Below, piece by piece: positions 1 to 47,212 of a DNA stretch of 64,000 nucleotides (the first letter of the stretch is position 1; each line of letters begins with the position of its first letter). The notes below the pieces were generated by a model. The model was not told the origin of the DNA. It was given only the letters and a program-made list of their open reading frames with translations, and did not search any database. The position numbers and the translations under genes are program-made. Origin of the DNA: Mercurialis annua (Eukaryota; Streptophyta; Magnoliopsida; Malpighiales; Euphorbiaceae); contig NC_065577.1 in the NCBI RefSeq assembly GCF_937616625.2, positions 20,411,501 to 20,475,500 of the forward strand, read 5' to 3'.

Positions 1-61
1 TTCCTAAGAGGCAAATCTATAAACTGACCATTGGGATTTTGAATCTGGCATGTTTTGGACA

Positions 62-150
62 GTGTGCGAACGCACACAATGAGTGTGCGAACGCACACCC
101 TAAATTTCAAGGAGTGTGCGAACGCACACTCAATGTGTGCGAACGCACAC
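62..150. repeat. Array of four identical 16-bp palindromes, GTGTG-CGAACG-CACAC
   Basis: Four identical copies lie at 62-77, 83-98, 114-129 and 135-150. Start-to-start distances are 21, 31 and 21 bp, close to two and three helical turns. The 5-bp arms are perfectly complementary around a CGAACG core. The same 5-6-5 design with other arms occurs at 4145-4262 and 18456-18631. Confidence 0.95.
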
Positions 151-160
151 CCTTGACAGC

Positions 161-183
161 CCCCGGAAAGTCGTTTTCCGGGG
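161..183. repeat. GC-rich hairpin, 9-bp arms
   Basis: CCCCGGAAA at 161-169 is the exact reverse complement of TTTCCGGGG at 175-183, with a 5-base loop. It lies beside the palindrome array in the family-B LTR. No T run follows on either strand, so it does not read as a terminator. Confidence 0.8.
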
Positions 184-964
184 CTTTTCAGCCATCCCAA
201 CGTGCTATACATTCAACTATATAAAATCCGCCTCTCGGTTTTCATTAAAACGCTATAAAAACTTCAAAAACGTTAAATTCGATCCTAATATTCTATATAC
301 CTAAAACAACCCCTTTTTAGCCATTTTTAACCAAAATTTTCGAAGATTCACCTTGAAACGAAGCTTAGGATCGATAGAGGATTCGATTTTGAAGAAATCG
401 CTGCGAAAATCTCTTGAATCGTACGTCGAACGGCGAAACGATCGTAATCAGCGATACTTTCTTTAACTCTCGCGATCCTTCTCTCTGCTTCTTTCTTTCA
501 TAAACCATTCCATATATATTTTGGTTAAAATACCATTTAGTACTTGTCCTTTCTGTTTCTTACCATTTATCCTTTGAACTTTTCTTTCGTACGATTTAGT
601 CCATAACTAAATCAATAAATTCTTGAATTATAACTTATACGTATTATTTATACCCAATAAATAATACGAAATTCGATATTAAAACTTTTCGGTCAAAACC
701 TACAAATTTCCATTTTCGACATAAAGTGGCTAAATTACCACTTTGGTCCATGTACTTTATTTTGAGCTTTTCTCGACACTTTTCCTTTTAATTCCAATTC
801 CAACTTTTTAATTGAAATATATTATTAAATTCCTCGCATATAATCCTTTCCAAAACCGACCTACTAAAACTTATTTATCGGAAAACTTTTTGATATCGTC
901 ACTACTGCGACTCAAAACTGGACACGTGATCCAATTAGCTAATTAAATATTTTGGGGTATTACA

Positions 965-1548
965 ATCTCATATCAAAGCATTTAAAATATCACAAGAATC
1001 GAGTTATCCAACTTTTAATAACAAAATTTCACAATCAACAATATCGATCAACCAACCTTTACTATCGAAACCTACTCTTCACGATTATCGAATCAACTAA
1101 CTCAAAAATCTGAACCGAACTCAAATTATCAAGATCATTTCACCAAATGTAACTCTTGCAATCAAGGTATCAGCTAGATTATATTCACTAGTAAATGGGT
1201 CATTGGTTATGCTCATGTCGAACTTACAGGAAAACAAAATCTCCAAAACACAAAATGCTATATCTATATTTTCACCTTTTAAAGACGTTAACATCTTATA
1301 CCCATTTTCATATACAAAATTCAAAATCCTTTTACCATTGAAAAACCTCCAGTTTTATAAACTCCTCAAAAAATTTGTATTTGTAATTTGCATATTAACC
1401 TTACCTTTAAACAAATTTACAAATCCTAAAATTATTTAAATGCCAAAATTTTATTTCCTTTAAATAAAACATGATAAAATAGGTTTATTCTTCTTTTTTT
1501 TTCAAAATAGAAAAATATTTGTAATGAAAATACTTTTTGCTAAAAAAA
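965..1548. other. Unassigned AT-rich interval between two LTRs
   Basis: This stretch lies between the family-B LTR terminus (964) and the next LTR (1549). It has no satellite monomers, no recognisable protein motif and no polypurine tract. Two overlapping short frames on opposite strands (1121-1324, 1203-1439) show no family similarity I recognise. It may be the flank into which the LTRs inserted. Confidence 0.4.
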
Positions 1549-2132
1549 TGATTTTCATGAATCGGGCTCGACGCTACGGTATGGGTAATATAGTACCAAA
1601 ACCTGTATCTAGCCTTTCATTTAACATAATAACACATAAACCTGCAGAAAACCAATACTCGGGGGCAACCGAGACTTCAGCCTAAATCTAGCAGTTATAA
1701 TATTCAACAATTAAAATAACATGCTTTCCAATAATAATATTAATTCGGTTTAACATAAATAATTCTGATTAGTATTATAACATGCCAAAGCAATAATAAT
1801 CCAGTCGGACCAATCCGCCAACAACTAAAATAAAATAAAGACGTCTAGTTAACTACTGCGGTCTAAGAATAAAACAGTTTTACAGTTTATCAAAAATAAA
1901 TGGAACCTCCGAGGAAAAGTAAATGCGGAGATCACCAGAATCTCTCAGATCATAACCCTGGGAAACATTGGGAAAACAACGGGGTCAGATATACTGAGAT
2001 GAGTTTATACCACTATCTACATTTATTAAGTGGAAAACCTTTAAGACCGTTTAAAACATTTAATAACGATATTACGAATAATAGTTGGAACCCTAATCCA
2101 TAAATCTAAATAATATCATAATCCATTAGGTC

Positions 2133-2253
2133 TGGTCCCGAGAGCTTAGCTACAGCGAGTTACCACTGACCACTTTTATACCAGAGTCCCGAGAGCTGAG
2201 CTACACCGAGTTACTCTATTTGGTCCCGAGAGCTACGCTCACACCAAGTTACC
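2133..2253. repeat. Three spaced copies of a GTCCCGAGAGCT...GAGTTAC block in the LTR
   Basis: Copies start near 2135, 2186 and 2223. Each runs from GTCCCGAGAGCT to an AGTTAC end about 30 bases later. The equivalent block occurs in reverse complement in the solo LTR at 20451-20575, so it is a conserved feature of this LTR subfamily. Confidence 0.8.
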
Positions 2254-2970
2254 GCATTTCCATATATAACTTACCCATATCAATACCGGTGCGCACGCGG
2301 TCCTAATGATGCCATTAGGTAGCATGTTCCAACTAAAAGCCATAATATAAAAACAGTTCGAAATATACATACAGTATGTATATTTAATATTAAAATAACA
2401 ATTTACTTAATAAAGCGGTAAATAGTAAGTACAAACTCACTGCTTGCTAATCCACGTGAAAACCGGCAAGCAACTAATCCTGGTTCGCCTCTGGAGCACG
2501 AACAATAGACGGGTCTAGACAAATAAAATAATTATTAAAAACAGACCCTGACTCTAGAGAGTACTAGACACCACACAGGACTAGCACAAATAACACGTCG
2601 GAATAAACACAAGCCAGAACACACAAAATACCCATTAGGTAATAAAGCCCAATTAATATAAGTTTATTGAGTTCTCGCTTTAAAATCCAATTTTTAAATA
2701 TTATTTAATAAACTTTAAATAATAATTAATTTTCCAAATAGTGGGTTAGCCGAGTTATCATTAACTACCAAGCTAACCTCACTTGTCGGGTGACCCAAGT
2801 CTAACCCGACTCAAAACATTTATTAATATAAACCAAGTTTATATTTAAAAAACAATTCAATAAAATAATAATCCATTTTAAAATCGGAACTCAATAACTT
2901 CAATTTCAAGTAACCCAAGTTACAACCCAAAAAGTTAATTAAATAAATCTTAAAAAAAAGTTTAGGGATT

Positions 2971-3051
2971 AAATTGTACTTTAGCCAATTAAGGACTAAA
3001 CTGTACTTTTGCCAATTACGGACTAAATTGTACTTTAGCCAATTTGATATC
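2971..3051. repeat. 27-bp tandem repeat, three copies
   Basis: Units beginning AAATTGTACTTTAGCCAATT start at 2971, 2998 and 3025, with a few substitutions. A related single copy lies near 3151. The repeat sits inside the A1 3' LTR. Confidence 0.85.
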
Positions 3052-4065
3052 GAAAATCAATTTAATTGCTTTTGTTTATATTTAAAACAAAATATAAAAT
3101 AACCAACCAACGATCCACTTAATTAAATTATAAAATAGGTTCAGGGGCTAAATTGTAATTTAGCCAATTTCATGCCAAATTGATATTCTTAATTACATAG
3201 AATTACCCGAGTAATTATATTAACTAAATTTATAATTAATTATCATTTTTAATGTTTAATTTGTAAATCAAAATAAAATCCAAGTTATTAGGTAATGTTA
3301 AACTTAAAGGATTAATTTGTTTTGATCAAAACAATTACATGATTGGAATGGTCATTTTTCCATCTCCTTCCTTTTAAACAAATAAAATCCCCGCCACCCT
3401 TAACTCTCAAAACTCCATTTTCAAGCTTCTGGACATGATTTTCAACCTTCTGGACATGATTTTCAACCTTCAAACCATCAAGACTTCATACTATAACCAC
3501 ATCATTCATCAAAATCAACAACCCAACATATCAAAAGCAAAACTGTAGTGATTTATTCAAGCACAAGTGAACGACAGTGGACACTATCACTAAGAGTAAA
3601 CCGAACTACGGAATAACATGGCTCACAATCCGATCAATTGATTCTAACAATCAAGGGTGCTAATAAACATACAAGAAATCTCAAATCAATGACCAAGACA
3701 ATGAAATTATAAACGGCAACAACAATAAATCAAGAACAGTTGACGCAAACTAGAAAACGGAAACCGTACGGCGATTTAAAACGAGGTCGATCACATACTG
3801 TTCAACGAAAACGAGGTGGGGAATCGAAGGTATATGAGTCTAGAATGTTTGAGATCAAACCGTGTTGATTTCGATCTAGAAACGAGCAAGAACGAGTCAG
3901 AGAACCGAAAGACGTTTAAAAATGAAAACTGAAATTCAATGAAACCAGAAAACTTACCGAGGCAGCAACTTTGGATGACTATTCCCGCTTCGTTTTTCAG
4001 AAAATGAGCAAGAAAATGACGGCTAGGGTTTCAGTGAAGTGTGGTGAAGGTTTTCTATTTAGAAA

Positions 4066-4076
4066 GCTTTTATAAA
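4066..4076 (-). promoter_or_regulatory. Probable LTR TATA box
   Basis: The minus strand reads TATAAAAG about 70 bases downstream of the palindrome array and about 350 bases inside the LTR. This is a plausible U3 core promoter. The start site is not mapped. Confidence 0.55.
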
Positions 4077-4144
4077 TATCGAGAGGAACTAGGTCGAAAA
4101 CGAGTGCAAAGTGGGATGGATGCAAGGCTCCCATGGCCTGCAAT

Positions 4145-4262
4145 GTTCTCGAACGAGAACAGCCCATTTGGGCTTGGTTCTTGTTCGAGAACCCCTGGTT
4201 TCATACGAGACCAGGCACTAATTACGATTCTCGTTCGAGAATCTTAATTCTCGAACGGGAAT
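4145..4262. repeat. Array of five 16-bp palindromes with TTCT/AGAA-type arms
   Basis: Units lie at 4145-4160 (GTTCTCGAACGAGAAC), 4177-4192, 4197-4212 (GGTTTCATACGAGACC), 4227-4242 (ATTCTCGTTCGAGAAT) and 4247-4262 (ATTCTCGAACGGGAAT). Start spacings are 32, 20, 30 and 20 bp. Most arms are complementary around a CGAACG or CGTTCG core. The third unit has GGT/ACC arms like those of the solo LTR at 18456-18631. The array is directly upstream (element sense) of the TATA box. Confidence 0.92.
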
Positions 4263-4419
4263 GACAAAATTCCTTTTTTTTTTATTTAAAAAAATAGATG
4301 GTTAAACCACAACATCAACCCATCACGAACCAACTCGAACCAGACCTTTAACTTCGATTTTTCTTAAAAACGATTGGAAAATTTGTCGGAAAAACGCTGA
4401 AAATTTACGGGGTATTACA

Positions 4420-4431
4420 TTCTCCCCAACT
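4420..4431 (-). promoter_or_regulatory. Polypurine tract of the chromovirus
   Basis: The minus strand reads AGTTGGGGAGAA immediately before the LTR start TGTAATACCCC. This is the usual plus-strand primer arrangement of Tekay/Del elements and fixes the LTR boundary at 4419. Confidence 0.9.
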
Positions 4432-4535
4432 AATTAAAAATTCGTCCTCGAATTTAACACGATAAGCAATTAACAGTAGTAAAACACATAACCCAATAAA
4501 ACTCATAAAAATCACATAAAATCGAATATCGTACC

Positions 4536-6142
4536 TCACGGAAAAAGAAAAGGATAGCGATTCCGTATATCCGACTCGGTCTCCCAAGTACATTCTTCAA
4601 CAGAATGATTGTGCCAGAGGACTTTGACCATCGGAATCTCCTTGTTCCGCAACTTACGCACTTGCGTATCCACAATCTCAATTGGCTGTTCCTCATAGGA
4701 CAGCTCCTGGTCAATCTCAACACTCTGAGGCACAATCACGTGCGAAGGATCAGAAATGCATTTTCTCAACATAGAAACATGAAACACAGGATGTACTAAC
4801 GACATGTCTGGCGGCAGAACCAGACGATAAGCCACAGCTCCAATCCTCTCTGAAATATCATAAGGACCAATATACCTCGGTGCCAACTTTCCCTTGACAC
4901 CAAAACGAACCACGCCTTTCATAGGCGAAACACGAAGAAACACGAAATTGGCAACATGAAACTCAATGTCTTTCCTCTTCGGATCAGCATAACTCTTATG
5001 CCGACTAAAAGCAGTCTCTAACCTCCGTTTGATCAATGGTACCTTCTCTGAGGTAATCTGAATAATCTCTGCTCCCGAGAGTTTACGCTCTCCGACCTCC
5101 TCCTAACAGATAGGAGATCTACACTTGCGCCCGTACAAAGCCTCATACGGCGCCATCTCGATACTCGAGTGGTAACTGTTGTTGTAAGAAAACTCAATCA
5201 ACGGCAAATGAGTATCCCAGCTATCCTGAAAATCGAGAACACACTTCCTGAGCATATCCTCCAATGTCTGAATAGTTCTCTCAGACTGACCATCAGTCTG
5301 AGGATGAAAAGCTGTACTGAAATCCAACCGAGAATCCAAGGATTCCTGTAGCGCTTTCCAGAACCTCGAAGTAAACATAAAACCTCTGTCTGGAACAATA
5401 GAAATCAGTACACCATGCAAACTGACATTCTTGTCGATGTACAACTGAGCCAACCTCGAAGCAGTATACGAAACCTTGATCGGGAGGAAATGAGCTGACT
5501 TGGTCATACAGTCAACTATCACCCAGATTGAATCGTACCCCGGTCGAGTACGTGGAAAACCAACCACAAAATCCATGGAAATCCGCTCCCACTTCCACTC
5601 TGGAATAGGTAGTGGCTGCAGATAGCAAAAAGGTCTCTGATGCTCCAGCTTCACCTGCTGGCAGGTCAGACACTTAGAAACATACTCAGCGACATCCTTC
5701 TTCATCCCGCTCCACCAGTAGGTACCCTTAAGATCATGGTACATCTTAGTAGAACCCGGATGAACACTATAAGCAGATTTGTGCGCTTCCTCCAGAATCT
5801 GGTCCCTCAAACCATCTGAATCTGGAACACACAATCTCAAACCATGTATCAGAACACCATCCATAAAAGTAAACTCAGAATTACCGTCCTGCTGAACCTC
5901 CTCAATAATCCATTTCAACTGTGGATCCTCATCTTGTAAAGCTTTAATCCGATCAATCAAAACAGGTTGCACTTGCAACTCTGCCAATAAATAACCAGCC
6001 TGCAAAACCTGAAAATCATAGCCCGAAGCTATCAAACTGTGCCACTCTCTAACCATGGGTCTACGCCCAACCTCAGAAATACGAGCCAAACTGCCCGAAG
6101 ACTTGCGACTCAACGCATCGGCTACCACATTAGCATGTTCCA
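4536..6142 (-). pseudogene. pol: Chromovirus pol fragment: RNase H tail, integrase, chromodomain
   Basis: Ty3/Gypsy polyprotein remnant that would insert element cDNA into the genome. Minus-strand reading from about 6140 starts with the [10 protein letters not shown] end of RNase H. The integrase zinc finger follows (H121, H128, C158, C161 counted from 6143), then a catalytic core with D191, D252 and E288 (DD35E spacing), all kept. After the integrase come the GPYDI and HPVFHVSMLRK blocks and a C-terminal chromodomain (ending in CTWETESDIRNRYP). One in-frame TAG at 5103-5105 replaces the tryptophan normally found after CRSPIC (TGG to TAG); the frame continues unchanged to 4536, so there is no frameshift. 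Gag, protease, reverse transcriptase and most of RNase H are missing because the right end runs straight into LTR sequence near 6131-6140. The apparent first Met is a TTG codon at this junction, not a real start. The domain order and chromodomain indicate the Tekay/Del lineage. Confidence 0.93.
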
Positions 6143-6515
6143 ACTAAAAGGCATAATGGAAAAACAGTTCGAAACATACATGCAGTATATATCTATATAT
6201 ATTAAAATAACAATTTACTTAATAAAGCGGTAAATAGTAAGTACAAACTCACTGCTTGCTAATCCACATGATAACCCGGCAAGCAACTAATCCTGATTCG
6301 TCTCCGAAGCACGAACAGTCGACGAGTCTAGACAATATAAATCTGAATTAAAACATGTCCTAACTCTAAAGAGTACTAGACAATACATATAACTAGCACA
6401 AACATCAACAAGCCAAGACAAAGCAAACACACTTACTTAATCCATAGCCAAAGCATAAACCAAAGTAGAATAATCATACATACTGAACATAACCGAAGTC
6501 ATACGATATTTAAGT

Positions 6516-6771
6516 CAAATTGAGTTCCCACTTTGAAAACATAATCCGGAAATAATTTCAATAACTTAGTTAAAATCATAAAACTAAGTTTAAACGAAAG
6601 TGGTGAGCTAGCCGAGTTATCACAACTGCCAAGCCTATACTCACAAATTGAGTTTCCACTTTGAAAACATAATCTGGAAATCATTTCAATAACTTAGTTA
6701 AAATCATAAAACTAAGTTTAAACGAAAGTGGTGAGCTAGCCGAGTTATCACAACTGCCAAGCCTATACTCA
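6516..6771. repeat. 128-bp tandem duplication inside the LTR
   Basis: 6516-6643 and 6644-6771 are adjacent direct copies differing at a few bases. Both begin CAAATTGAGTT and end with CTATACTCA. The other chromovirus LTRs here have only one copy of this block, so the duplication is private to this LTR. Confidence 0.9.
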
Positions 6772-8226
6772 CAAATTAGGCGACCCAAGTCTAACCCAAA
6801 CCAAACATCCAACCAAAGTAAAACAATTCGTTTAAAGTCCGGAATCATTTAAATATACCAAAGTCTAATTTTATAAAACAAGGGAACTCAAATCAAAGAT
6901 TAAAATCCAAGTACATCATCATGATTATAAAGTGTTCGATAAAAGTCCTCAAAGGATAAACACAACCAAATAAGTCAAAAGTTAATATACAACAGCCCTA
7001 TCATGCTTAATAATCATATTTGATATAAGACATGTCATATCAAAACATTTGGTATCAATCAAGCAAACCTTTCATAAATTAAGCCAATTAAGCATTCATA
7101 TAGCTCAAGACAAGACCAATCGTGAAAGTCAAACCAAAACACCTTAGATTAGATTATGAACTTTCCTTAACATATAATATAAAATCAAATCAGATCCTAA
7201 GTCACCACAAATCAAAGAATCCGAAAACATAGCTTTTTAGCGTAAAACTAGCTAGTTTACAAAATATGCTAACACGTACCAAAACAAATAAGATACTAAC
7301 TCGAAAATTCATTTAGATCAGTAGTATATCCCATAAGTACATACAAAACAACTTAAGATCAGTTTCAAAACAAGCCAAAAACACTTAAACAATAATATTG
7401 ACAATATTGTCAAAAATTGCCTAAACAAGCCAACTAAAGCAAATAAGAATTCTCTAAATCAAATCAGGTTACTACTAATCTAAAACCTTTAAAACACCAC
7501 TTAGAACATATTAGATCAGTAGGTAAAGCATTTCAAACCCGTTTTGTATTCGTAGCGTTCAACTTCCTTAAAATTGTCATTTTCGCAAACCGTGGAGATT
7601 TCACAAACCAATTCCATTTTAATTATTATTTTCAATCAAAAATATTTAGATCGGTAGCTATTGATATAAAAACACCCAACAACTCAAATAACTCAGATTC
7701 AATACTTGAACAAATCGTTAATCGAATCAAATTTGTACAAGTCTAGATTTTGGTAAATCGTTGATTAATTACACCAAATTGCTCTTAATTCAATTAGGAT
7801 AAGATTATATTCATGAATAACTTTATAATACTTAATATACTCAGATTATACACCACCAACCAACAATCAATTGAATCCAATCATTTACAACCCTAAATCA
7901 CATGTTTCTACGCATCAAACGTAACAAGTGAATAATAAATCAAAAGGAAATGGATAAGATACATAAGATTAATGTATGAACTGATGTGATGAAAATAGAA
8001 CAAGAATAAAGGTCTGGACCAAAACTAAGTGAAGCCACCAACACACCAACAATGAACGCGACGAAAAACGCACTTAAATCTTGCGAGAGGAACGTAAAAT
8101 CACACACTTAACGTAATGAAATGAACCCTAACGTTTTGGAATGAAGAAATATAGGTCTATAAGTGTAATAGATCTTCTTTTAGGTTTTAGGGTTCGAAAA
8201 GGGGCTGATAACATTAGTTAGAGGGT

Positions 8227-8236
8227 CTATTTATAG
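8227..8236 (-). promoter_or_regulatory. LTR TATA box CTATAAATAG
   Basis: CTATTTATAG on the plus strand reads CTATAAATAG on the element strand. The identical decamer is at 51539-51548 in the truncated LTR. It lies just downstream (element sense) of an inverted repeat. Confidence 0.65.
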
Positions 8237-8242
8237 ACTATT

Positions 8243-8275
8243 GTGGGCTTTACATGGGCTTCGAATAAAGCCCAC
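8243..8275. repeat. Inverted repeat GTGGGCTTTA / TAAAGCCCAC
   Basis: Perfect 10-bp arms at 8243-8252 and 8266-8275 with a 13-base loop containing TTCGAA. It occupies the position, just upstream of the TATA box, where other LTR copies carry palindrome arrays. Confidence 0.85.
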
Positions 8276-8700
8276 GGTTTAATAGGTATATTTAGAGTTA
8301 GGGACCTCCAAATAACGATCCAACTGACCGGACTTTAGCAAATCCTCTTGGGAACAACATATCCAAAGATGAGCCTTATCCGACCGTTTAATTGTGAGAT
8401 ATTAACGTTTTACTAACACATGACAGTTTTGGAAAATAAGTGAATGCTGTTTTTATTAATACCAATAAATAAATTGAATGAACATCGAACACATAAGGGC
8501 TCATGGGATACATATGAGACACTCAAAAAGACACTATCAAGGTATCATAAGTGTTACTTCTAACGTATAACAATCCATAATCAAGTCGGAAACATAACAA
8601 GAACATGCTGAAATACAAAAGAACAAAAATTCAAGAAAATAACTAATTTCTAACGGATAACCGAACTGACAAATCAAGTTTGAAAACACGGGGTATTACA

Positions 8701-11700
8701 TAAACCAAACGTTTACAAACGTTTCCCATTTTTAGCGATTTAAACCAAACGTTTACGAACGTTATGAAACAAATCCAAATGTTTCACCTTTTTTAGCGAT
8801 TTAAGCCAAACGTTTACAAACGTTGCGAAACGTATCCAAATGTATCACCTTTTTAGTAATATAAGCGAAACGTTTACAAATGTTACGAAACAAATCCAAA
8901 CCTTTAACCTTTATAGCAATTTATGCCAAGCGTTTAAATCTTTACGAAACCAGTCCAAATGTTGAAAATGTTACGAAACAAATCCAAATATTTCACCTTT
9001 TTAGCGATTTAAGCTAAACGTTTACAAACGTTACAAAACAAATCCAAACGTTTTAAACATTATGAAACAAATCCAAACATTTCACTTTTTTAGCGATTTA
9101 AGCCAAACGTTTTTAAGCGTAACAAAACAAATCCAAACGTTTAACCTTTTTAGCCATTGAAACCAAATGTTTACAAACATTACAAAACAAAACCAAACGT
9201 TGTACCTTTTTAGCGATTAAAGCCAAACGTTTAAAATGTTACGAAACCAATCCAAACGTTGAAAACGTTACAAAACAAATGCAAACGTTTCACATTTTTA
9301 GCGTTTTAAGCAAAATGTTTACAAACCCTACGAACCAAATCCAAATGTTTCACCTTTTTTAGCGATTTAAGCCAAACATTTACAAATGTTACAAAACAGA
9401 TCCAAATGTTTCCCCTTTTTAGCGATTTAAGCCAAACGTTTACAAACATTACGAAACAAATCCAAACGTTTTACCATTTTAGTGATTTAAGCCAAACGTT
9501 TACAAATGTTACGAAACCAATCGAAAAGTTTCCCATTTTTATCAATTTAAGCCATCCGTTTACAAACTTCACGAAAGAAAACCAAATGTCTCACCTTTTT
9601 AGCGATTTAAGCCAAACATTTACAAATGTTACGAAACAAATCCAAACATTTCACATTTTCAGCGATTAAAGTCAAACGTTTAAAATGTTATGAAACCAAT
9701 CCAAACGTTGAAAACATTACGAAACAAATCTAAACGTTTCACATTTTTAGCGTTTTAAGCAAAATGTTTACAAACGTTACGAACCAAATCCAAATGTTTC
9801 ACCTTTTTTAGCGATTTTAGCCAAACATGTACAAATGTTACGAAACAGATCCAAACATTTCCCCTTTTTAGCGATTTAAGCCAAATGTTTACAAACATTA
9901 CGAAACAAATCCAAACGTTTTACCATTTTTGTGATTTAAGCCAAACGTTTACAAATGTTACGAAACCAATCGAAACGTTTCCGATTTTTATCAATTTAAG
10001 CCATCCGTTTACAAACGTCACGAAAGAAAACCAAACGTCTCACCTTTTTAGCGATTTAAGCCTAACGTTTAAAAATGTTACAAAATAAATCCAAATGTTT
10101 CCTTTTTTTTTAGCAATTTAAGCCAAACGTTTACAAACATTACAAAACAAATTCAAATGTTTCACCTTTTTAGCGATTTAAGCGAAACGTTTACAAACGT
10201 TGCGAAACGTATCCAAATGTTTCACAGTATAAGTGATTTAAGCCAAACGTTTACAAACGTTATGAAACAAATCCAAGCGTTTCACCTTTTTAGCGATTTA
10301 AGCCAAACTTTGAAAACATTACGAAACCTATCCAAACATTGAAAACATTACGAAACAAATCCAAACGTTTCACCTTTTTAGCGATTTAAGCCAAACGTTT
10401 ACAAACGTTACAAAAACAATCCAAATGTTCAAAACGTTAGGAAACAAATCCAAACATTTCACCTTTTTAGCGATTGGAACCTAACATTTACAAACGTTGC
10501 GAAACAAATCCAAACGTATCACCTTTTTACCGATTGGAAGGAAACGTTTACAAACGTAATAAAGCAAAACAAATGTTTCACCTTTTTAGCTATTTAAGCC
10601 AAATGTTTACAAACGTTAGGAAACAAAACCAAACATTTCACCATTTTAGAAATTTAAGCCAAACGTTTACAAACGTTATAAAAAAATACAAATGTTTCAT
10701 CTTTTTAGCGATTTAAGCCAATTTAAAACATTATGAAACCTATCCAAACGTTTAAAATGTTACGAAACCAATCCAAACGTTTAAAACAATACAGAACCAA
10801 ACCAAACGTTTCACATTTTTATCAATTTAAGCCAAATGTTTACAAACGTCACGAAGCAAAACCAAACGTTTCCCCTCTTTAACGATTTAAGCCAAACGTT
10901 ACGAATCAAATCCAAACGTTTCCCATTTTTAGCGATTTAAGCCAAACATTTACAAACGTTACGAAGAAAATCCAAATGTTTCACCTTTTTAGCGATTAAG
11001 CCAATCGTTAACAAACGTTACGAAACAAATCGAAACATTTCACCTTTTTAGCGATTTAAGCCAAAAGATTAATACGTTACGAAACCAATCCAAACGTTTA
11101 AAACATTACGAAATAAATCCAAATGTTTCACATTTTTAGCAATTTAAGCCAAACGTTTACAAAAGTTAAGAAAACAAATCCAAATGTTTCACATTTTAAG
11201 CGATTTAAGCCAAACGTTTAAAACATTACAAATCCAATCCAAAAGTTTAAAACGGTACGAGACAAATCCAAATGTTTCATCGTTTTTTGCGATTTAAGCC
11301 AAACGTTTACAAACGTTACAAAACTAATTCAAACATTTTATAAACGTTTCGCCTTTTTAGCAATTTAAGCCAAACGTTTACAAACGTTACAAAATTAATC
11401 CAAACATTTCACCTTTTTTGCAATTTAAGTCAAACGTTTACAAAAGTTACAAAACAAATTCAAACCTTTCACCTTTTAAGTGATTGAAGACAAATGTTAC
11501 GAAACAAATCCAAACGTTTCAACTTTTTTAGCGTTTTCAGCAAAACATTTAAAAAGTTACGAAACTAATCCAAACGTTAAAAACTTTACGAAATAAATCC
11601 AAACATTTTACCCTTTTTACGATTTTAAGCCAAACTTTTACAAACGTTAAGAAGCAAATCCAAACGTTTCACATTTTTAGCGATTTAAGCCAAACGTTTA

Positions 11701-14700
11701 CAAACGTTACGAAATAAATCCAAACGTTTCACCTTTTAAGCGATTTAAGCCAAAAGTTTAAAACATTACAAAACAAATCAAGTATGAAACAAACTAGTGA
11801 TTGAACCCAAACGTTACGAAACAAATCCAAACGTATCACCTTTTTAACAATTTAAGCCAAACGTTTACGAATGTTACGAATTAAATCCAAACGTTTTTGC
11901 ATTTTTGGAGATTTAAGCCAAACGTTTACAAACGTAACGAAACAAATGCAAATATTTAAAACGTCACGAAACAAATCCTAACGTTTCCCCTTTTTAGCGA
12001 TTTAAGCCAAACATTTACAAACGTTACAAAAAAAAACCAAATGTTTCATCTTTTTAGCGATTTAAGACAAACGTTTAAAACGTTACGAAACCAATCGAAA
12101 AGCTTAAAACATTACGAAAAAAAATCCAAACGTTTCGCTTTTTTAGCGATTTAAGCCAAAACTTTCTAAACTTTACGAAACAAATCCAAATGTTTCACCT
12201 TTTTAGCGATTTAAACCAAACATTTACAAACTTTACGAAATAAATCAAAACGTTTCACCTTTTTAGCAATTTAAGCGAAACATTTAAAAACATTACGAAA
12301 TAAATCAAAACGTTTCAACTTTTTTGCAATTTAAGTCAAACATTTAGAAAAGTTACGAAAAAAAATCCAAACGTTTCTCCTTTTTAGCGATTTAAGCAGA
12401 ACTTTTACAAACGTTAGGAAACAAATCTGAACGTTTCACCTTTTTGGCGATTTCAGCCAAACATTTAAAATGTTACGAAACCAATCGAAACGTTTAAAAC
12501 GTTACGAAATAAATCCAAACGTTTCATCTTCTTAGCGATTTAAGCCACTAATTTAAAACGTTACGAAACAAATTCAAATGTTTCATATTTTTAGCGATTT
12601 AAGCCAAGAGTTTATAAACGTTACGAAACAAAGCAAAACAATTCACATTTTTAGCGATTTAATCCAAACGCTTACAAACCCTACAAAACAAATCCAAACT
12701 TTTACCTTTTTACCGATTTAAGCCAGACGTTTAAGACGTTACGAAACCAATTCAAACGTTTGAAAACATTATGAAACAAATCCAAACATTTCACCTTTTT
12801 AGCGATTTTTTCCAAAAATTTAAAACGTTACGAAACAAATCCAAATGTTTCACCCTTTTAGCGATTTAAGCCAAACGTTTACAAACGTTACAAAACAAAT
12901 CCAAACGTTTCTCTTTTTTAGTGATTTAGACCAAATGTTTACAAACGTTACGAAACAAACCAAAATGTTTAAAACGTTACAAAACAAATCCAAACGTTTC
13001 ACCATTTTCGCGATTTAAACCAAACGTTTAAAAACGTTATGAAACAAATCCAAGCGTTTCACATTTCAGCGATTTAAGCCAAATATTTACAAACGTTACT
13101 AAATAAATCAAAATGTTTAAAATGTTACGCCACAAATCCAAAAGTCCAAATGTTTCACCTTTTTAGCAATCTAAGCCAAATGTTTAGAAAAGTTACGAAA
13201 CAAATCCAAACATTTCATCTTTTTAGTTATTTAAGCCAAACGATTAAAACGTTACGAAACCAATCCAAACATTTAACCTTTTTAGCTATTTAAGCCAAAC
13301 GTTTACAAACGCTACCAAACAAATCCAAATGTTTTACCTTTTTAGCGATTTAAGTTAAAAGTTTAAAACTTCACAAAACCATTCCAAACGTTTAAAACGT
13401 TATGAAACAAATCCATACGTTTCACCTTTTTAGTGATTTAAGCTAAACATTTAGAAACGTTTCGATACAAATCTAAACGTTTACAAACATAACGAAACAA
13501 ATCCAAACGTTTCCCCTTTTTTGAGATTTAAGTCAAACGTTTACAAAAGTTACGAAAAAAATCCAAACGTTTCTCCTTTTTAGCGATTTAAGCCAAACCT
13601 TTACAAACGTTACGAAACGTATCCAAACGTTTCACCTTTTTAGCGATTTCAGCCAAACATTTAAAATATTACGAAACCAATCCAAACGTTTAAAATGTTA
13701 CGAAATATATCCAAACGTTGCATTTTTTTAGTGATTTTAGCCACAAATATAAAACGTTACGAAACAAAACAAAACGTTTCACCTTTTTAGTGATTTAATT
13801 AAAACGTTAGGAAACCAATTCAAACGTTTAAAAACGTTATGAAACAAATCCAAACGATTCACCTTTTGAGCGATTTAAGCCAAACATTTAAAACGATATG
13901 AAAGAAATCCAAACGTTTCACCCTTTTTAACAATCTAAGCCAAACGTTTACAAACGTTACAAAAACAAATCCAAACGTTTCACCTTTTTAGTGATTTAGG
14001 CTAAACGTTTAAAAACGTTACAAAACTAATCCAAATGTTTAAAACGTTACAAAACAAATCTGAACGTTTCATATTTTTTGCGATTTAAGTCAAACGTTTA
14101 AAAATGTTATGAAAACAATCCATGCGTTTCACCTTTTTAGCGACTTAAGCCAAATGTTTACAAACGTTACAAAACAAATCCAAACGTTTCACCTTTTTCC
14201 CATTTAAGTCAAATGTTTACAAACGTTGTAAAAGATATCAGAACGATTCCCATCTTTAGCGATTTAAGCCAAACATTTACAAGCGTTACGAAACAAATCC
14301 AAACATTTCACTTTTTTAGTGATTTATGCCAAACGTTTACAAACGTTGCGAAACAAATCCAAACGTTTCCCATGTTTAGCGATTGAAGCCAAACGTATAC
14401 AAACGTTATGAAACAAATCCAAACGTATGCCCTTTTTAGCGATTTCAGCCAAACGTTTACAAACTTTACTAAACAAAACCAAACGTTTCCCCTTTTTAGC
14501 GATAAAGGCCAAACATTTACAAACGTTACAAAACCAATCCAAACATTTCACCTTGTTAGCGATTTAAGACTAATGTATACAAACGTTACGAAAGAAATAC
14601 AAACATTTCATGTTTTTTGCTATTTAAACCAAACGTTTACAAACCTTACGAAATAAATCCAAACGTTTCACCCTTTCAGCGATTTAAGCAAAATGTTTAC

Positions 14701-14975
14701 ACACATTGCGAAATAAAACTAAACGTTACGCCTTTTTAGCAATTTAAGACAAACGTTTACGAATGTTACGAAACAAATCCAAATGATTATAAACGTTACG
14801 AAACAAATCCAAACGTTTCACCTTTTTAGTTATTTAAACCAAATGTTTACAAACTTTACGAAACAAATCCAAACGTTTCACCTTTTTAGCAATTCAAGCC
14901 AAACGTTTACAAATGTTACAAAACAAATCCAAATGTTTCTCCATTTTAGGGATTGAAGCCAAAAGTTTACCAACG
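8701..14975 (+). repeat. 60-bp satellite array, forward orientation
   Basis: Tandem monomers of 60 bp. Conserved boxes in order are GCGATTTAAGCC, AAACGTTT (monomer 13-20), ACAAACGTTACGAAAC, AAATCCAAACGTTT (AACGTT at 44-49) and CACCTTTTTA. Copies differ by roughly 10-20 percent, with many C/T and G/A differences at CpG. A second form of about 89 bp recurs, made by duplicating a 29-bp segment around GTTACGAAACCAATCCAAAC. Because 60 bp is 20 codons, one frame stays open and gives a repeating FSDLSQTFTNVTKQIQTFHL peptide with scattered stops; this is a by-product. The array begins at an LTR end and stops at an orientation switch near 14,975. Confidence 0.95.
9212..10080 (+). repeat. Higher-order repeat, two copies 449 bp apart
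   Basis: 9212-9660 and 9661 to about 10,080 share diagnostic variants in the same order: GCGATTAAAG, then GCGTTTTAAGC, a GAACCAAATCC monomer, an ACAGATCC monomer and a CATCCGTTT monomer. The period fits six 60-bp monomers plus one 89-bp monomer. Confidence 0.85.
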
Positions 14976-17900
14976 ATGAAACGTTTAGATTTGTTTCGTA
15001 ACGTTTTAAACATTTGGCTTAAATCGCAAAAAAGGTGAAACATTTAGATTTGTTTCGTAATGTTGGTAAACATTCGTCTTAAATCGCTAAAAAGGTGAAA
15101 AGTTTTGATTTGTTTAATAAAGTTTGTAACCGTTTGGCTTAAATCGCTAAAAAGGTGAAATGTTTCGATTTGTTTCTTAGCATTTGTGATCGTTTGGATT
15201 TTTTTCTTAACGTTCGGAAACGTTTGTCTTATATCGCTAAAAAGGTGAAACGTTTGGATTTGTTTCGTAAAGTTTGGCTTAAATTGCTAAAAATATGAAA
15301 CGTTTGGATTTGTTTCGTAATGTTTTAAACGTTTGAATTTGTTTTGTAACATTTGTAAACGTTTGTCTTAAATCGCTATTAAGGTTAAACATTTGCTTTT
15401 GTTTCGAAACGTTTGTACGTTTGTAACTGTTTGACTTAAATTGCTAAAAATGTGAAACGTTTGGATTTGTTTCGTAACGTTTGTAAACATTTGGTCTAAG
15501 TGGCTGAAAAGCTTAAACGTTTGGATTCGTTTTGTAACGTTTGTAAACATTTTGCTTAAATCGCTAAAAAAGTGAAACGTTTAAATTTTTTCGTAATGAT
15601 ATAGACGTTTGGATTTGTTTCGTAACATTTTAAATATTTGGCTTATATCACTAAAAAGGGGAAACGTTTGGATTTGTTTAGTAACGTTTGTAAACGTTTG
15701 GCTTTAATCGCTTAAAATGTGAAATGTATGGATTTGTTTCGAGACGTTTGTAAACGATTGGCTTCAATCGCTAAAACGGTGAAATTTTTGGATTTGTTTC
15801 GTAACGTTTTAAACGTTTGGATTCGTTTCGTAACGTTTTAAACGTTTTGCTTAAATCGCAAAAATGGTGAAATGTTTGGTTTTGTTTGGTAACGTTTGTA
15901 AACGTTTGGCTTAAATCGCTAGAAAGGGGAAACATTTGGATATGTTTCGTAACGTTTGTAAACATTTTGCTTAAATCGCTAATAAGGTGAATCATTTTGA
16001 TTTGTTTCGTAACGTTTGTAAACGTTTCGCTTAAATCGGTAAAAAGGTAAAACGTTTGGATTTGTTTCGTAACGTTTGTAAATATTTGGCTTATATTGCT
16101 AAAAAGCTTAAACGTTTGAATTTGTTTCGTAACGTTTGTAAACGTTTGGCTTAAATTGATAAAAACGTGAGACTTTTGGATTTTTTTCATAACGTTTTAA
16201 ACGCTTGGATTTTTTTCGTAACGTTTTAAACGTTTAGATTGGTTTCGTAACATTTTAAACGTTAGGCTTAAATCGCTAAAAATGTGAAATGTTTTGTTTT
16301 GTCTGATAACGTTTGTAAACGTTTGACTTAAATCGGTAAAAATATGAAACGTTTGGGTTTGTTTTGTAACGTTTGTAAACGTTTGGCTTAAATTGCTAAA
16401 AAGGTGAAACGTGGTGAAACGATTGGTTTGTTTCGTAAAGTCTGTAAAAGTTTGGCTTAAATCGCTAAAAATGTGAAACATATGGATTAGTTTCGTAACG
16501 TTTTAAAAGTTTGGATTTGTTTCGTACCGTTTTAATCGTTTGGATTTGTTTCGTAACGTTATGAAACGTTTGGCTTAAATTGCTAAAAAGGTGGAACGTT
16601 AAGATTTATTTTGTAATGTTTTAAACGTTTGGATTGGTTTTGTAAAGTTTTAGACGTTTGGATTTGTTTATTAACAGTTGTATATGTTTGGCTTAAATCG
16701 CTAAAAAAGGGAGACGTTTGGATTGGTTTCATAACGTTTTAAACGTTTGGATTGGTTTTGTAACATTTGTAAACGTTTGGCTTAAATCGCTAAAAAAAAG
16801 TGAAACATTTGGATTTGTTTCGTAACGTTTGTAAAGATTTGACTTAAATTTCTAAAAAGGTGAAAGGTTTGGTTTTGTTTCGTAACGTTTGTAAACATTT
16901 GGCCTATCTCGCTAAAAAGGTGAAACGTTTGGATTGGTTTCGTAACATTTTAAACGTAAACGTTTGGCTTGAATCGCTAAAAATGTGAAATGTTTAGATT
17001 TGTTTGGTATGTTTGTAAACGTTTGGCTTATATTGCTAAAAACATTTGGATTTTTTTCGTAATGATTGTAAACGTTTGGCTTCAATCGCGAAAAAGGTAA
17101 AACGTTTGGATTTATTTCGTAATGTTTTAAACATTTGGATTGGTTTCGTAACGTTTTAAACGTTTGGCTTAAATCGCTAGAAAGGGGAAACGTTTGGATT
17201 TGTTTCGTATAGTTTGTAATTGTTTTGCATCAATCGCATAAAAAGGTACAACGTTTTGATTTGTTTCGTAACGTTTGTAAACGTTTGGCTTAAATCTCTA
17301 AAAAGGTGAAACGTTTGGATTTGTTTCGTAGAGTTTGTAAACGTTTTGCTTAAATTGCAAACAGTTGAAATGTTTGGATTTGTTTCGTAACGTTTGTAAA
17401 CGTTTAGCTTAAATCTTTAAAAATGTTAAACGTTTGGATTTGTTTCGTAACGTATTAAACGATGTGATTTTTTTCGTATCTTTTTAAATGTTTGGATTGG
17501 TTTCGTAACATTTTAAACGTTTGGCTTAAATCGCTAAAAAGGGCAAATGTTTGGATTTGTTTCGTAACGTGTGTAAACGTTTGGCTTAAATATCGAAAAA
17601 GGTGAAACGTGGTGAAAAGTTTGGATTTGTTTCGTAACGTTTGTAAACATTTGGCTTAAATTGCTACAAATGTGAAACATTTTGATTTTTTTTGTAACGT
17701 ATTAAACATTTGGATTTGTTTCGTAACGTTTTAAACGTTTTGATTTGTTTCGTAACGTTTTAAACGTTTGGCTTAAATCGCTAAAAAGGTGAAACGTTAG
17801 GATTTGTTTTATAACGTTTTGAACATTTGGATTGGTTTTGTAACATTTTATACGTTTGGATGTGTTTTTTAACGTTTGTGAACGTTTGCCTTAAATCGCT

Positions 17901-18282
17901 AAAAAGGTGAAACATTTGGATTGGATTCGTAACATTGTAAACGTTTGGATTGGTTTTGCAACATTTGTAAACGTTTGGCTTAAATCGCTAAAAAAAGTGA
18001 AACATTTGCATTTCTTTCGTAACATTGTAAACGTTTGGCTTAAATTGCTAAAAAGGTTAAATGTTTGGTTTCGTTTTGTAACGTTTGTCAACGTTTGGCT
18101 TTAATCGCTATAAAGGTGAAACGTTCGGTTTTGTTTCATAACGTTTGTAAACATTTGGATTGGTTTTGTAACGTTTTAAACTTTTGTCTTAAATCGCTAA
18201 AAAGGCGACACGTTTGGATTTGTTTCGTAGCATTTCTAAACGTTTGGTTTAAATCGCTGAAAATGTGAAACAATTGGATTTG
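14976..18282 (-). repeat. 60-bp satellite array, reverse orientation
   Basis: Same monomer read on the other strand (GGCTTAAATCGCTAAAAAGG, GGATTTGTTTCGTAACG). The forward array ends at CAAAAGTTTACCAACG and the reverse one starts at ATGAAACGTTTAG, with no foreign sequence between. It contains many 89-bp long-form monomers. The array is interrupted at 18283 by a solo LTR and resumes at 21171. Confidence 0.94.
18278..18282. repeat. Target-site duplication atttg, left copy
   Basis: ATTTG before the LTR matches ATTTG at 21171-21175 after it. Both fit the satellite monomer GGATTTGTTTCG. Confidence 0.9.
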
Positions 18283-18455
18283 TGTAATATCCCATAAAAA
18301 AAATCTTTAGAAATTTGTGATGAATTTCCTATTAGGATTATTTCAAGTTTCGTGGGTCGTTCGTGGTCTGGTTCTTTTTTAGGTTTGATTTAAAAAGAAA
18401 GTAATCCATTGAGTGGTGGTTCAACCAAGTGATTGAACCACTTGCGTTTAACTCA

Positions 18456-18631
18456 GGTCTCAAACGAGACCTGAGTTAAAACGCAAGGTCTCGTTCGAGA
18501 CCGCATAACTCAGGTCTCGTTCGAGACCATGCGGTTTCGAACGAGACCTTGCGTTTTGAGGCTGGTCTCGTTCGAGAGCAGCAGGTCTCGAACGAGACCT
18601 AAGCCTTTTTTTGCTTGTCTCGTTCGAGACC
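18456..18631. repeat. Array of seven 16-bp palindromes, GGTCT-CGTTCG-AGACC type
   Basis: Units start at 18456, 18487, 18513, 18533, 18564, 18584 and 18616; spacings are 31, 26, 20, 31, 20 and 32 bp. The best copies read GGTCTCGTTCGAGACC or GGTCTCGAACGAGACC. The first lies in a larger inverted repeat with arms of about 22 bases (roughly 18438-18490). The third is nested inside CCGCAT...ATGCGG (18501-18534). The array ends about 57 bp before the TATA-like box. Confidence 0.93.
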
Positions 18632-20450
18632 AGCGTTAGGCTGCCAAAGGACAGTTTTGGTCTTCGTTTTTCTTCCTATTCTTTGCCTTATTTATACGTT
18701 TTTCTAAACTTAAATCCTTCCCCACACTCCAAACAAACCCTAGATGCCATTAACGTTTGATTTCCCTGAGAATTAACGCTGGAATCATGTCTAAAAACTG
18801 CTGTCTCGGTAAGCTTTTTTGTCCCTCTTAATTTCAGTATAGCTTTAAAACGGCAACTCCGTAAATCGATTCGTTCTCCCTCGTTTTTTGATTGAAATCT
18901 ATGCCGTTTGATCCGAGAGATTGTAGACTCAGTTCTCTACCATTCTACTCTTTGATTTCACAACACAGTATGCTATCGATCTCGTTTCAATCGCCGCCGT
19001 TTTACCGTATTATTGGTTCATGTAAACTGTTCATGTTTTCTTATTACTGCCGATCCATTCCTTTTTATTTGCTTCGATCTTATTATATTTCATGATGATT
19101 GGTTCTTAGGAATGTTGTGATTCATAAGCAAATTGATAATGTTGTGATAAATCTATCCATTTGTCGTCGTTTTGAATTATCGAAGGCACACTATAGTTTC
19201 TGCCGTGTTGTTCATGTTACTATTGCTTTGGATTCATTGGTTTTGCTTTAGGGTTATTGTTCATGCTACAACTGCTTTGGATTCATGGGTTTAGCTTTAG
19301 GGTTATTGTTCATGATTCATATTAGGTTCAGTGACTTCAATTTCTGGTGAATGATGAGAAGCTTGGGCGGGGTTGCTTGATTTTTGAATGAAGAAGATGG
19401 TTAAATTGCAATTATAATCACCATAATGTTTTACTTTAAACAAATAAATTCTTAAGTTAGTTTTACCTATTGATTTGATAATACCTTGGATTTCGTTATG
19501 ATTTATAAGTATTATTTTGTAAACGATAAGTATTTTACAAACTTAAGTTAATTTAATTACTCGGGTAATTAAATTTAAATATCAAAGTGGCTAAATTATA
19601 ATTTAGTCCTTGAATGATTTTATAAACTTATTTGATTAGGTTGTTGGTTAGTAACTTTATATTTGTTTTAATTATAAACAAAAATAATTATATTTATTTT
19701 CGAATATCAATTTGGCATGAAAATGGCCAAATTACAGTTTAGCCCTTGAACGTTTTTAAAACTTATTTAATTAAGTTTTTGGTTTGTAACTTGGGTTACT
19801 TGAATTCGAAGTTATTGAGATCTGTGTTAATAGTTAACTATTTTATCAAATTATTTTTATAAATATAAACTCGGGTTTATATTTAATAAACGTTTTGAGT
19901 CGGGTTAGACTTGGGTCACCCGACAAGTGAGGTTAGTTTGGTAGTTATTGGTAACTCAGCTAACCCACTATTTGGAAATTTATTTATTATTTAAACTTTA
20001 AATAATATTTATTAAATGGATTTTAAAACAAGAACTCAATAGACTTGTATTAATTGGCGTTTTTACCTATTGGATATTTTGTGTTGCTCTGGATTGTTTT
20101 ATTCCGACGTGCTATTTGTGCTAGTCATATGTGGTGTCTAGTACTCTCTAGAGTTATGGTCTGTTTTTAATAATTATTTTATTTGTCTAGACCCGACTAC
20201 AGTTCATGCTACAGAGGCGAACCAGGATTAGTTGCTTGCCGGTTATCACGTGGATTAGCAAGCAGTGAGTTTGTACTTACAATTTACCGCTTTATTAAGT
20301 AAATTGTTATTTTAATATTAAATATATATTGTACGTATATTTAGAACTGTTTTTATATTATGGCTCTTAGTTGGAACATGCTACCTAATGAGCATCATTA
20401 GGACTGCGTGCGCACCGGTAATGATCTGGGTAAGGTATATTATGAAATGT

Positions 20451-20575
20451 TGTAACTCGGTGTGAGCATAGCTCTCGGGACCAGGTAGAGTAACTCGGTG
20501 TAGCTCAGCTCTCAGTACTATGGATATGGTATAAGTGTGGTCAGTGGTAACTCGGTGTAGTTTAGCTCTCGGGAC
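20451..20575. repeat. Three spaced GTAACTCGGTGTAG...CTCTCGGGAC blocks
   Basis: Counterpart, in reverse complement, of the repeat at 2133-2253. It confirms that the two LTRs belong to one subfamily. Confidence 0.8.
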
Positions 20576-21170
20576 AAGACCTATTGGATCATGTATATAT
20601 ATTTAGAATTGTGGATTATGGTTCCAACTATTAATCGTAATATCGTTATTAAATGTTTTATACGGTTTTTAAGGTTTTCCACTTCATAAATGTAAATAGT
20701 GATATAAACTCATCTCAGTATATCTGACCCCGTTGTTTTCCCAATTTTCAAGGGTTATGATTTGAGAGAGTCGGCTGATCTCCGTTCTTTACTTTTCTCA
20801 GAGGTTTCACTATTTTGATAAACTGTAGAACTATTTTATTCTTAGACCGCAGTACTAACTAGACGTCTTTATTTTATTCTAGTTGTTTGTCGGATTCGTT
20901 CGACTAGATTATTATTGCTTTGACATGTTATATGATTATTCATATTTATTTATGTTATGCTTGTTTAAGACCAGTATTGAGAAAGCATGTTGTATAAATG
21001 TTGAATATTATAACTGCTAGAATTAGAATGAAGTCTCGGTTTCCCCCGAGCATTGGTTTTCTTGCAGGTTTATTATAATTGTATGTTAACCGAAAGGCTA
21101 GCTACAGGTTTTGGTACTACACCACCCATACCCTAGCGCCGGTCACGATTCATGAAAATGAGTCGTGACA

Positions 21171-21585
21171 ATTTGTTTCATAACTTTTTTAAACGTTTGG
21201 CTTAAATAGCTAAAAAGGGGAAACGTTTGGTTTTGTTTCGTAACTTCTTCAAACGTTTGGCTTAAATCGCTAAAAATGTGAAACGTTTGAATTTGTTTCG
21301 AAAAGTTGAAATGCTTGGATTGGTTTCATAACGTTTTAAACGTTTGGCTTAAATCGATAAAAAGGTAAAACATTAGGATTGGTTTTGTAACGTTTTAAAC
21401 GTTTGGATTGGTTTCGTAACGTCTTAAACGATAGCTTAAATCGCTAAAAACGTGCAATGTTTTGTTTTGTTTCGTAACGTTTGTAAACGTTTGGCTTAAA
21501 CCGTTGAAAATGGGGAAGGTTTGGATTTGTTTCGTAACATTTTAAACGTTTGGATTGGTTTTGTAACGTTTTCAACTTTTGGTTT
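21171..21585 (-). repeat. 60-bp satellite, reverse orientation
   Basis: Continuation of the reverse array after the solo LTR, starting with the duplicated ATTTG. It ends near 21,585, where TTTTGGTTTA is followed directly by forward GATCCAAACATTTCACC. Confidence 0.92.
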
Positions 21586-38773: not shown

Positions 38774-39134
38774 AAGCCGAGTATATTATGACATGAGAAT
38801 TCGTAATAGAAGGTGTTTGGATAAATGAGTTTGTAACTGAACTAAGTACGGTTTTCTTCCATTAAATCGAAAGTTCCTCTTTTCTGCGACCACAATGGTG
38901 CTACTGCCCTAGCAAAAGAAACCGGGTCTCACAATTTATCCGAACATAAGGAAAGGCATTATCATATTATCTAATGAAATTGTTGGAAAGAGAATTGTTT
39001 CTCTAAAAGATAGCATTTGCCAATAACACGGCTAACCCACTGACAAAGACCATGACTTAGAGTCATTAATATTTACATCTTGTGAAGATGGGGCTTAGAT
39101 ATAGTTGTCAATGGCACTAGTGCAAGTGGGAGAT
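38774..39134 (+). pseudogene. pol: Copia RNase H tail plus polypurine tract (left, truncated unit)
   Basis: C-terminal end of a Ty1/Copia polyprotein, entered directly from satellite at about 38,774. One frame reads CDHNGATALAKETGSHNLSE, then HKERHYHII, the conserved RNase H end. A TAATGA and a one-base shift break the frame after HII. The same break is present in the matching right copy (45527-45887), so the defect predates the copying. The polypurine tract AAGTGGGAGAT (39124-39134) touches the LTR. This tail upstream of the 5' LTR shows that a further element unit once lay to the left. Confidence 0.88.
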
Positions 39135-40457: not shown

Positions 40458-40470
40458 TGGATGTCTCTGT

Positions 40471-40650: not shown

Positions 40651-40676
40651 TTGCATTCTTAAGCAAAGCTCTACCC

Positions 40677-47199: not shown

Positions 47200-47212
47200 T
47201 GGATGTCTCTGT

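Follow-up and report, generated by a model that had tools for sequence, protein, structure and literature searches.

Long terminal repeat (LTR) retrotransposons account for a large part of many plant genomes and, to our knowledge, the factors that activate or silence a given family are for the most part unknown. The closest described system to the one analyzed here is that of the Sireviruses, Ty1/copia elements in whose LTRs palindromic repeated motifs, their arms specific to each element, are located just upstream of the TATA box, with a CGG-CCG core in all elements but one and with 3 to 14 copies in the 3′ LTR; the motif is termed Sirevirus-specific and is absent from the classic Ty1/copia elements compared (PMC2829016; this and the other reports on described systems are cited from excerpts). 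The subject of this work is a 64,000-nucleotide stretch of the genome of Mercurialis annua (contig NC_065577.1, positions 20,411,501 to 20,475,500, in an assembly of 451 Mb in 55 contigs; the whole stretch is hereafter called the window) in which three LTRs (LTR1, LTR2 and LTR3) each contain an array of 16-bp palindromes. The units follow a regular layout, their two arms change in pairs, the arms diverge less than the spacers between units, and in two of the three array groups the arrays lie close to a TATA box.

As far as can be told from sequence, these arrays would work like the Sirevirus repeated motif, minus two features that define membership in that system, namely, the type of element and the core. 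As in the excerpted Sirevirus description, there are several to many short LTR palindromes with a CpG in the core and with element-specific arms in which symmetry is kept, distant elements have the design in common, and the units cluster upstream of the TATA box, in the LTR2/LTR3 type and in a second group of LTRs (L112, L121, L071), but not in LTR1. Unlike the Sirevirus case, the carrier here is a Ty3 chromovirus, with a chromodomain beside LTR2, and the core is CG-NN-CG rather than CGG..CCG. Each LTR holds 3–8 units, counted per LTR, compared with at least eight copies per element for the Sirevirus motif, and a regular 20/31-bp spacing with slot-by-slot paired arm changes is noted here. The initial annotation of the window knew of no named system that matched the arrays; the Sirevirus motif is such a parallel.

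Two other systems are more distant. The target motifs of the VANC proteins of Arabidopsis VANDAL transposons (PMC5735166, PMC10398659) are likewise short, lie in non-coding repeats and have diverged from one related family to the next; on the VANDAL side, they are read by a sequence-specific protein. Unlike the palindromes described here, they are same-orientation repeats, not described as palindromic in the excerpts (PMC5735166), and VANC is encoded by its own element, whereas here the end of pol is separated from the 3′ LTR by 120 bp in the two loci with this boundary mapped (L013, L019). Retand, like the elements here, is a Ty3/gypsy plant element with family-specific repeat arrays, and it encodes extra proteins with a suggested regulatory role; its tandem repeat arrays and antisense open reading frames (ORFs) are located between pol and the 3′ LTR, that is, in the internal region, and LTR palindromes are not described in the excerpts (PMC11963269). 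Among the titles and opening parts of abstracts listed from the open-licence literature, and in excerpts of PMC10794571, PMC11963269 and PMC6911290, no report of such arrays in Ty3 chromovirus LTRs was found.

Palindromic arrays in the window

The three arrays are as follows.

62 to 150, minus strand: array 1 (LTR1), four perfect GTGTGCG-TT-CGCACAC units (in element orientation) at 62, 83, 114 and 135, spaced 21, 31 and 21 bp
4145 to 4262, minus strand: array 2 (LTR2), five units at 4145, 4177, 4197, 4227 and 4247 (slots A to E, counted from the promoter side), spaced 32, 20, 30 and 20 bp
18456 to 18631, plus strand: array 3 (LTR3), seven units of the GGTCTCG-NN-CGAGACC type at 18456, 18487, 18513, 18533, 18564, 18584 and 18616, spaced 31, 26, 20, 31, 20 and 32 bp

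All 16 units reported in the initial annotation are present. It had described 5-bp arms around a 6-bp core, and although the symmetry holds, the self-complementary arm is actually 7 bp long and ends in CG, with a 2-bp center outside the arms. Of the 16 units, 13 combine a CG-NN-CG core with outer 5-bp arms that have no more than one mismatch, and the remaining three (4177, 4197 and 18456) have each lost one core CpG through a change of the C-to-T or G-to-A type relative to their neighbors. Array 3 consists of three perfect units, three with one arm mismatch and the one with the lost core CpG. The claim that most arms are shared or nearly shared within an array fits array 1, in which they are identical, and array 3, with its single arm type, but not array 2, which mixes ATTCC, ATTCT, GGTCT or a decayed form of it, and GTTCT arms.

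The annotated spacing of 20–21 or 30–32 bp is borne out by 12 of the 13 adjacent spacings, the single exception being 26 bp. With 10.2–10.5 bp per helical turn, the vector strengths of the unit positions are 0.94–1.0 for array 1, 0.72–0.94 for array 2 and 0.41–0.57 for array 3. The stretch analyzed for LTR2 began 9 bases before the LTR and that for LTR3 one base late, which leaves the spacings unaffected.

A chance simple repeat is ruled out by Markov simulations together with the copies found elsewhere in the genome. The window contains 9 perfect units, against a mean of 0.25 and a maximum of 2 in 40 order-1 Markov runs, and 13 units with at most one mismatch, against a mean of 2.85 and a maximum of 8; for each LTR segment, all 2,000 Markov runs fell short of the count observed, at both the perfect and the one-mismatch settings.

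Inverted symmetry is also seen at a larger scale. The center of array 3 (18449–18590) is a large inverted repeat that includes the spacers and folds as a single long stem, and a GC-rich inverted repeat, CCCCGGAAA..TTTTCCGGGG, directly adjoins array 1 in LTR1 (160–185).

Elements that carry the arrays

The window consists mostly of satellite DNA, with a unit near 30 bp, in which retrotransposons are embedded. The features of the three array-bearing elements are listed below.

1 to 964, minus strand: LTR1, cut by the window edge; starts at 964 with TGTAATACCCC; the LTRs of its relatives are ∼2.34 kb long
515 to 530, minus strand: TATA-like stretch of LTR1, approximate, placed by analogy with LTR offset 438 in locus L091
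1538 to 4419, minus strand: LTR2, a 3′ LTR that begins with TGTAATACCCC after GGGGAGAA; R/U5 homologous to that of LTR3; lower end approximate
4069 to 4080, minus strand: TATA-like box of LTR2, ∼68 bp downstream of array 2
4539 to 5102, minus strand: C-terminus of pol adjoining LTR2, with a Tf2-1-like SH3 domain (PF24626, E 2.6e-24) and a chromodomain (PF00385, E 8.8e-07)
5106 to 6143, minus strand: integrase region with a zinc-binding H2C2 domain (PF17921, E 1.7e-20)
18278 to 18282, plus strand: left copy of the target-site duplication ATTTG
18283 to 21170, plus strand: LTR3, a solo LTR within satellite DNA, TGTAATATCCC ... GTCGTGACA, with ATTTG on either side
18690 to 18696, plus strand: TATA-like box of LTR3, ∼59 bp downstream of array 3
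21171 to 21175, plus strand: right copy of the target-site duplication ATTTG

The integrase region, Tf2-1-like SH3 domain and chromodomain beside LTR2 identify that element as a Ty3 chromovirus, which we take to belong to the Tekay/Del lineage; a chromodomain at the integrase C-terminus, as found here, is a Tekay/Del feature. This domain evidence pertains to the element beside LTR2; the families of LTR1 and LTR3 share the LTR start TGTAATA(C/T)CCC. The initial annotation treated the three LTRs as separate, but their independence is ruled out: LTR2 and LTR3 are related, with 82% identity over 1,796 aligned columns in R/U5 and with the same slot spacing, whereas their U3 regions align only in shorter, weaker patches. 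LTR1 showed no match to LTR2 or LTR3 at an E-value of 0.01, and one 30-base patch was found in a separate comparison.

LTR1 is assigned to the minus strand because, in paired genomic copies, the purine tract and TGTAATACCCC are at the high-coordinate end and a primer-site match, TGGTATCAGAGC, is at the other end. The same copies rule out a plus-strand LTR1 with a TATA-like string near 218; nor is a primer binding site present in the stretch beyond 964. In element orientation, the TATA-like box of the LTR1 family is at LTR offset 438 and the array at 818, so that the array lies downstream of the likely transcription start. The arrays were originally placed upstream of the TATA box, which is correct for LTR2 and LTR3 but not for LTR1, where the array is ∼380 bp downstream of the TATA-like box.

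Array copies elsewhere in the genome

A sample of LTRs was drawn without regard to palindromes, using a 19-base pattern over the purine tract and the LTR start with at most one mismatch, which occurs at 4,437 places (2,270 plus 2,167). From these, 100 chromovirus-type 3′ LTR starts were listed, all of them exact matches and all on contig C1, and the scan covered approximately the initial 460 bases of each LTR, which would miss any array in the position seen in LTR1. At least two CG-core units with no more than one mismatch are present in 14 of these 100 LTRs, twelve of the LTR2/LTR3 type and two (L112 and L121) with other arms. In the first 90 LTRs of the sample, 95 units with a 2-bp center were found, compared with 16.7 in dinucleotide shuffles, and 34 phased pairs of such units, compared with a mean of 0.0 in 10 shuffles; even centers near 2 bp score as well because a unit with a 2-bp center can also be read with a center of 0 or 4 bp.

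The layout was compared slot by slot in 13 LTRs, 11 from the blind sample along with LTR2 and LTR3, with slots assigned by hand from the spacing; slots B and A of L013 (an apparent deletion) were left out of this table, slot D of L058, which is not a unit, was left out of the arm tests, and L128 was added later, outside the table. Counted from the promoter side, slots A and B are mostly 31–32 bp apart, B and C 19–20, C and D 30–32, and D and E 19–20. Thus, among the 52 adjacent spacings, 24 are 19–20 bp and 26 are 30–32 bp, the other two being 26 and 28 bp, and consecutive spacings mostly sum to 50–52 bp. The center dinucleotide alternates in this type (TT in 11 of 12 slots A, AA in 11 of 12 slots B), with no alternation in LTR1. 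The array lies 37–68 bp upstream of a TATA-like box in the 10 LTRs, out of the 13, that have such a string and also in L128. A spacing near 20 bp is seen in separate instances, in LTR1 (21, 31, 21), L112 (20, 22, 22) and L121 (20, 18, 20).

The second group comprises L112, L121 and L071, which align with one another at the LTR start (72–83% identity), along with L072, which clusters with L071; around the TATA box, L112 is 77–79% identical to L121 and L071. The arrays of L112, L121 and L071 end 25–26 bp before the TATA box, with TGTCACG..CGTGACA arms in L112 and GTTAGCG or GTTCGCG arms in L121 and L071. Place and design have thus been kept in this group with arms that differ. The support from this group is weaker than that from the first because its units are mostly imperfect, with one perfect unit each in L071 and L072 only.

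Some palindromes in other LTR groups are single and unarrayed, namely, TAGTTTGGC..GCCAAACTA in L011 and L045 (LTR offset ∼520) and TGCCATAATGGCA in L006 and L007 (LTR offset ∼335). Viral contigs yielded no confirmed relative. The search of contigs from other genomes yielded a single locus, L125, a 3.8-kb contig in a Streptomyces assembly that encodes a plant-type chromovirus pol end (52% identity) and is probably plant contamination; no array was seen by eye in the 517 bases after the pol match.

Paired changes and conservation of the arms

The 13 LTRs of the slot table contain 65 units, 36 of them distinct. Among the distinct units, mutual information is highest for columns 1–16, followed by the center (8–9), 2–15, the non-pair 1–15, and 5–12, and 213 of 252 cells are paired, compared with a mean of 184.8 and a maximum of 200 in 2,000 permutations that ignore kinship. 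In slots A, B, D and E, both members of pairs 1, 2 and 5 can differ between copies with standard pairing kept; for example, ATTCCCG..CGGGAAT in L056 corresponds to GTTCTCG..CGAGAAC in L019 and to GTTCCCG..CGGGAAC in L118. In L019, L044, L056 and L108, the units in slots C and B are each fully self-complementary (14 of 14 positions), with a mutual match of 8–13 of 16. In LTR2, as in 8 of the 11 LTRs from the blind sample, slot C carries GGTCT arms next to slots of the ATTC/GTTC type, and therefore the units are not simply copies of one another. Mismatches occupy 47 of 455 cells, 14 of the G:T type, 14 of the A:C type and 19 others.

A hand-picked set of five close copies (LTR2, L019, L021, L044 and L108) shows a divergence of 4.0% in the outer arms, 11.0% in the CG cores, 17.1% in the spacers, and 16.9% and 43.5% in the flanks; the value for the outer arms rises to 10.4% with L056 included because the arms of L056 have changed on both sides. 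Among 30 LTR1-type loci, which include the window's own locus and rank highest of the 40 scored from a set of 1,034 candidates, 26 have four units at spacings of 21, 31 and 21 bp. This sample is not blind because the query held the array; in the 30 copies, variable sites make up 4 of 48 non-CpG unit positions, 14 of 25 spacer positions and 50 of 178 positions in the rest of the query region.

The proposal that the arms vary with complementarity largely kept is upheld, and the layout is indeed better kept than its context. The sampled genomic copies, which the initial annotation had suggested inspecting for random spacing and independently mutating arms, show non-random spacing and arms that do not mutate freely. 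Its notion that the units evolve in concert is only partly accurate, as slots within one array often keep different arms.

Possible explanations of the arrays

On balance, we favor the view that the arrays are cis-regulatory sites in LTRs of Tekay/Del-type chromoviruses, phased along the DNA helix and recognized by a dimeric DNA-binding protein, and the initial annotation's suggestion of dimeric-protein sites is plausible. Each 16-bp unit would be a full homodimer site made of two 7-bp half-sites ending in CG, one for either subunit to read; with roughly two or three helical turns from unit to unit, and pairs of units every 50–52 bp, the dimers would come to lie on nearly one face of the DNA, where they might bind cooperatively near the promoter. 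Should the half-site preference shift, because the factor diverges or a different paralogous factor takes over, only changes in both arms would keep a working site, yielding the paired arm changes. From these patterns we infer that a protein binds, that it acts as a dimer and is of host origin, and that it activates rather than represses. The factor is probably host-encoded: pol ends so close to the 3′ LTR in L013 and L019 that there is no room for an extra gene there, which makes a host factor likelier. In L021, no ORF of 60 amino acids was found on the pol-end side of the 3′ LTR. If correct, this reading would show that the promoter design of the Ty1/copia Sireviruses has a counterpart in Ty3 chromoviruses; the fixed frame with interchangeable arms would supply ready probes for pulling down the factor, and with many copies per genome, the history of binding specificity could be read from sequence. 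A bolder version of this reading, which we consider rather doubtful, is a lock-and-key system in which each chromovirus family is switched by a dimeric factor with a fast-diverging half-site preference, either an activator recruited by the family or a host repressor that the family must escape; the arms would then be replaced on both sides, and the phased frame near the promoter would be held much longer than its sequence.

Several observations weigh against protein binding at phased sites. No single protein with a fixed specificity could bind every arm type, and one dimer per unit leaves unexplained the larger inverted repeats, that is, the unit pairs, the LTR1 array and the LTR3 center. The LTR1 array sits on the downstream side of its TATA-like box, and the helical phase of LTR3 is weak (vector strength 0.41–0.66 at 10.3–10.7 bp per turn). 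No array was seen in the first ∼460 bp of 86 of the 100 sampled LTRs, so that the lineage at large does not need it, and odd centers of 1, 3 and 5 bp give 35, 44 and 53 units, compared with 14–17 in shuffles, yet no phased pairs. L112 and L121 lack a perfect unit (mismatches at 1, 1, 3 and 2 and at 1, 1, 2 and 1 of the 7 pairs, respectively), six related copies retain a C:A mismatch in slot E, and in L114 the inversion between units G, F and E is better kept than the pairing inside each of them. Some decayed units (in L013, L021, L044 and L065) were placed by hand at the expected spacing, and most copies share ancestry, so that the permutation tests overstate independence.

Covariation by itself cannot separate protein sites from a kept structure, such as hairpins in the genomic RNA or DNA cruciforms, with roles in packaging, in reverse transcription or as small-RNA precursors, a proposal already made for the palindromes of maize Sireviruses, and RNA hairpins are a serious rival even though we rate this alternative as rather unlikely. 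The arrays fold as RNA far better than shuffled sequences (z-scores of −12.2, −9.0 and −11.8 for arrays 1 to 3, with none of 200 shuffles per array folding as well; for LTR3, only 18456–18590 was folded), the single long stem of the LTR3 center fits a hairpin, and in maize Sireviruses an excess of small RNAs is reported on palindromic regions (PMC10760457, from an excerpt). However, G:T and A:C mismatches are equally frequent, so that there is no preference for those compatible with G:U pairing, and when folded as single hairpins, which was done for five units, the units lose the seventh pair to a 4-nt loop. RNA hairpins have no need of a regular spacing near two and three DNA turns; this spacing, together with the lack of wobble preference, speaks against hairpins as the only cause. 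The palindromes might instead be neutral and without any function: template switching in the course of reverse transcription or replication would make and repair them, and duplication or conversion would spread them among the units. Quasi-palindrome correction is a known mutational route, and such an origin agrees with the inverted symmetry at the levels of the unit, the pair and the whole array, with the many imperfect units, above all in the L112/L121 group, and with arms common to four of five slots in L056 and to all three units in L058, as conversion would give. Mutational homogenization may well have made the larger inverted repeats, but as a full account the neutral origin seems unlikely, given the GGTCT arms of slot C beside slots of another type, the spacing that survives while spacers diverge, the units that are the least variable part although CpG-rich, and the TATA-proximal place kept in two LTR groups with different arms.

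The sites of a known plant factor, such as a heat-shock factor (motif TTCnnGAA) or an auxin response factor (motif TGTCTC), are a highly improbable explanation. GTTCTCGAACGAGAAC contains TTCTCGAA, and one L109 unit is TGTCTCGTTCGAGACA; however, the listed units of array 1, array 3 and L112/L121, read by eye without a motif search, lack TTCnnGAA, and TGTCTC on either strand was seen, by the same reading, in single units of 5 of the 13 LTRs in the slot table. As a general account, either element is disfavored by the variety of the arms.

Other features of the window

Two long direct repeats (38770–40719 and 45523–47461), ∼6.75 kb apart and 98% identical over two 300-base stretches, probably represent the two LTRs of a young retrotransposon and yielded no CG-core unit. 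The satellite, which occupies much of 8700–18280, 21176–38700 and 48640–64000, has a unit near 30/60 bp, and its monomers hold 16-bp palindromes with a 2-bp center, of the AACGTTT-NN-AAACGTT type, with a core unlike that of the LTR units. Clusters of the Sirevirus motif form CpG islands. Here, the observed/expected CpG ratio exceeds 1.2 in the 400-bp windows that start at 1, 4201, 18201 and 18601 (G+C 0.35–0.41), but not in those that start at 4001 and 18401, and is higher in the satellite.

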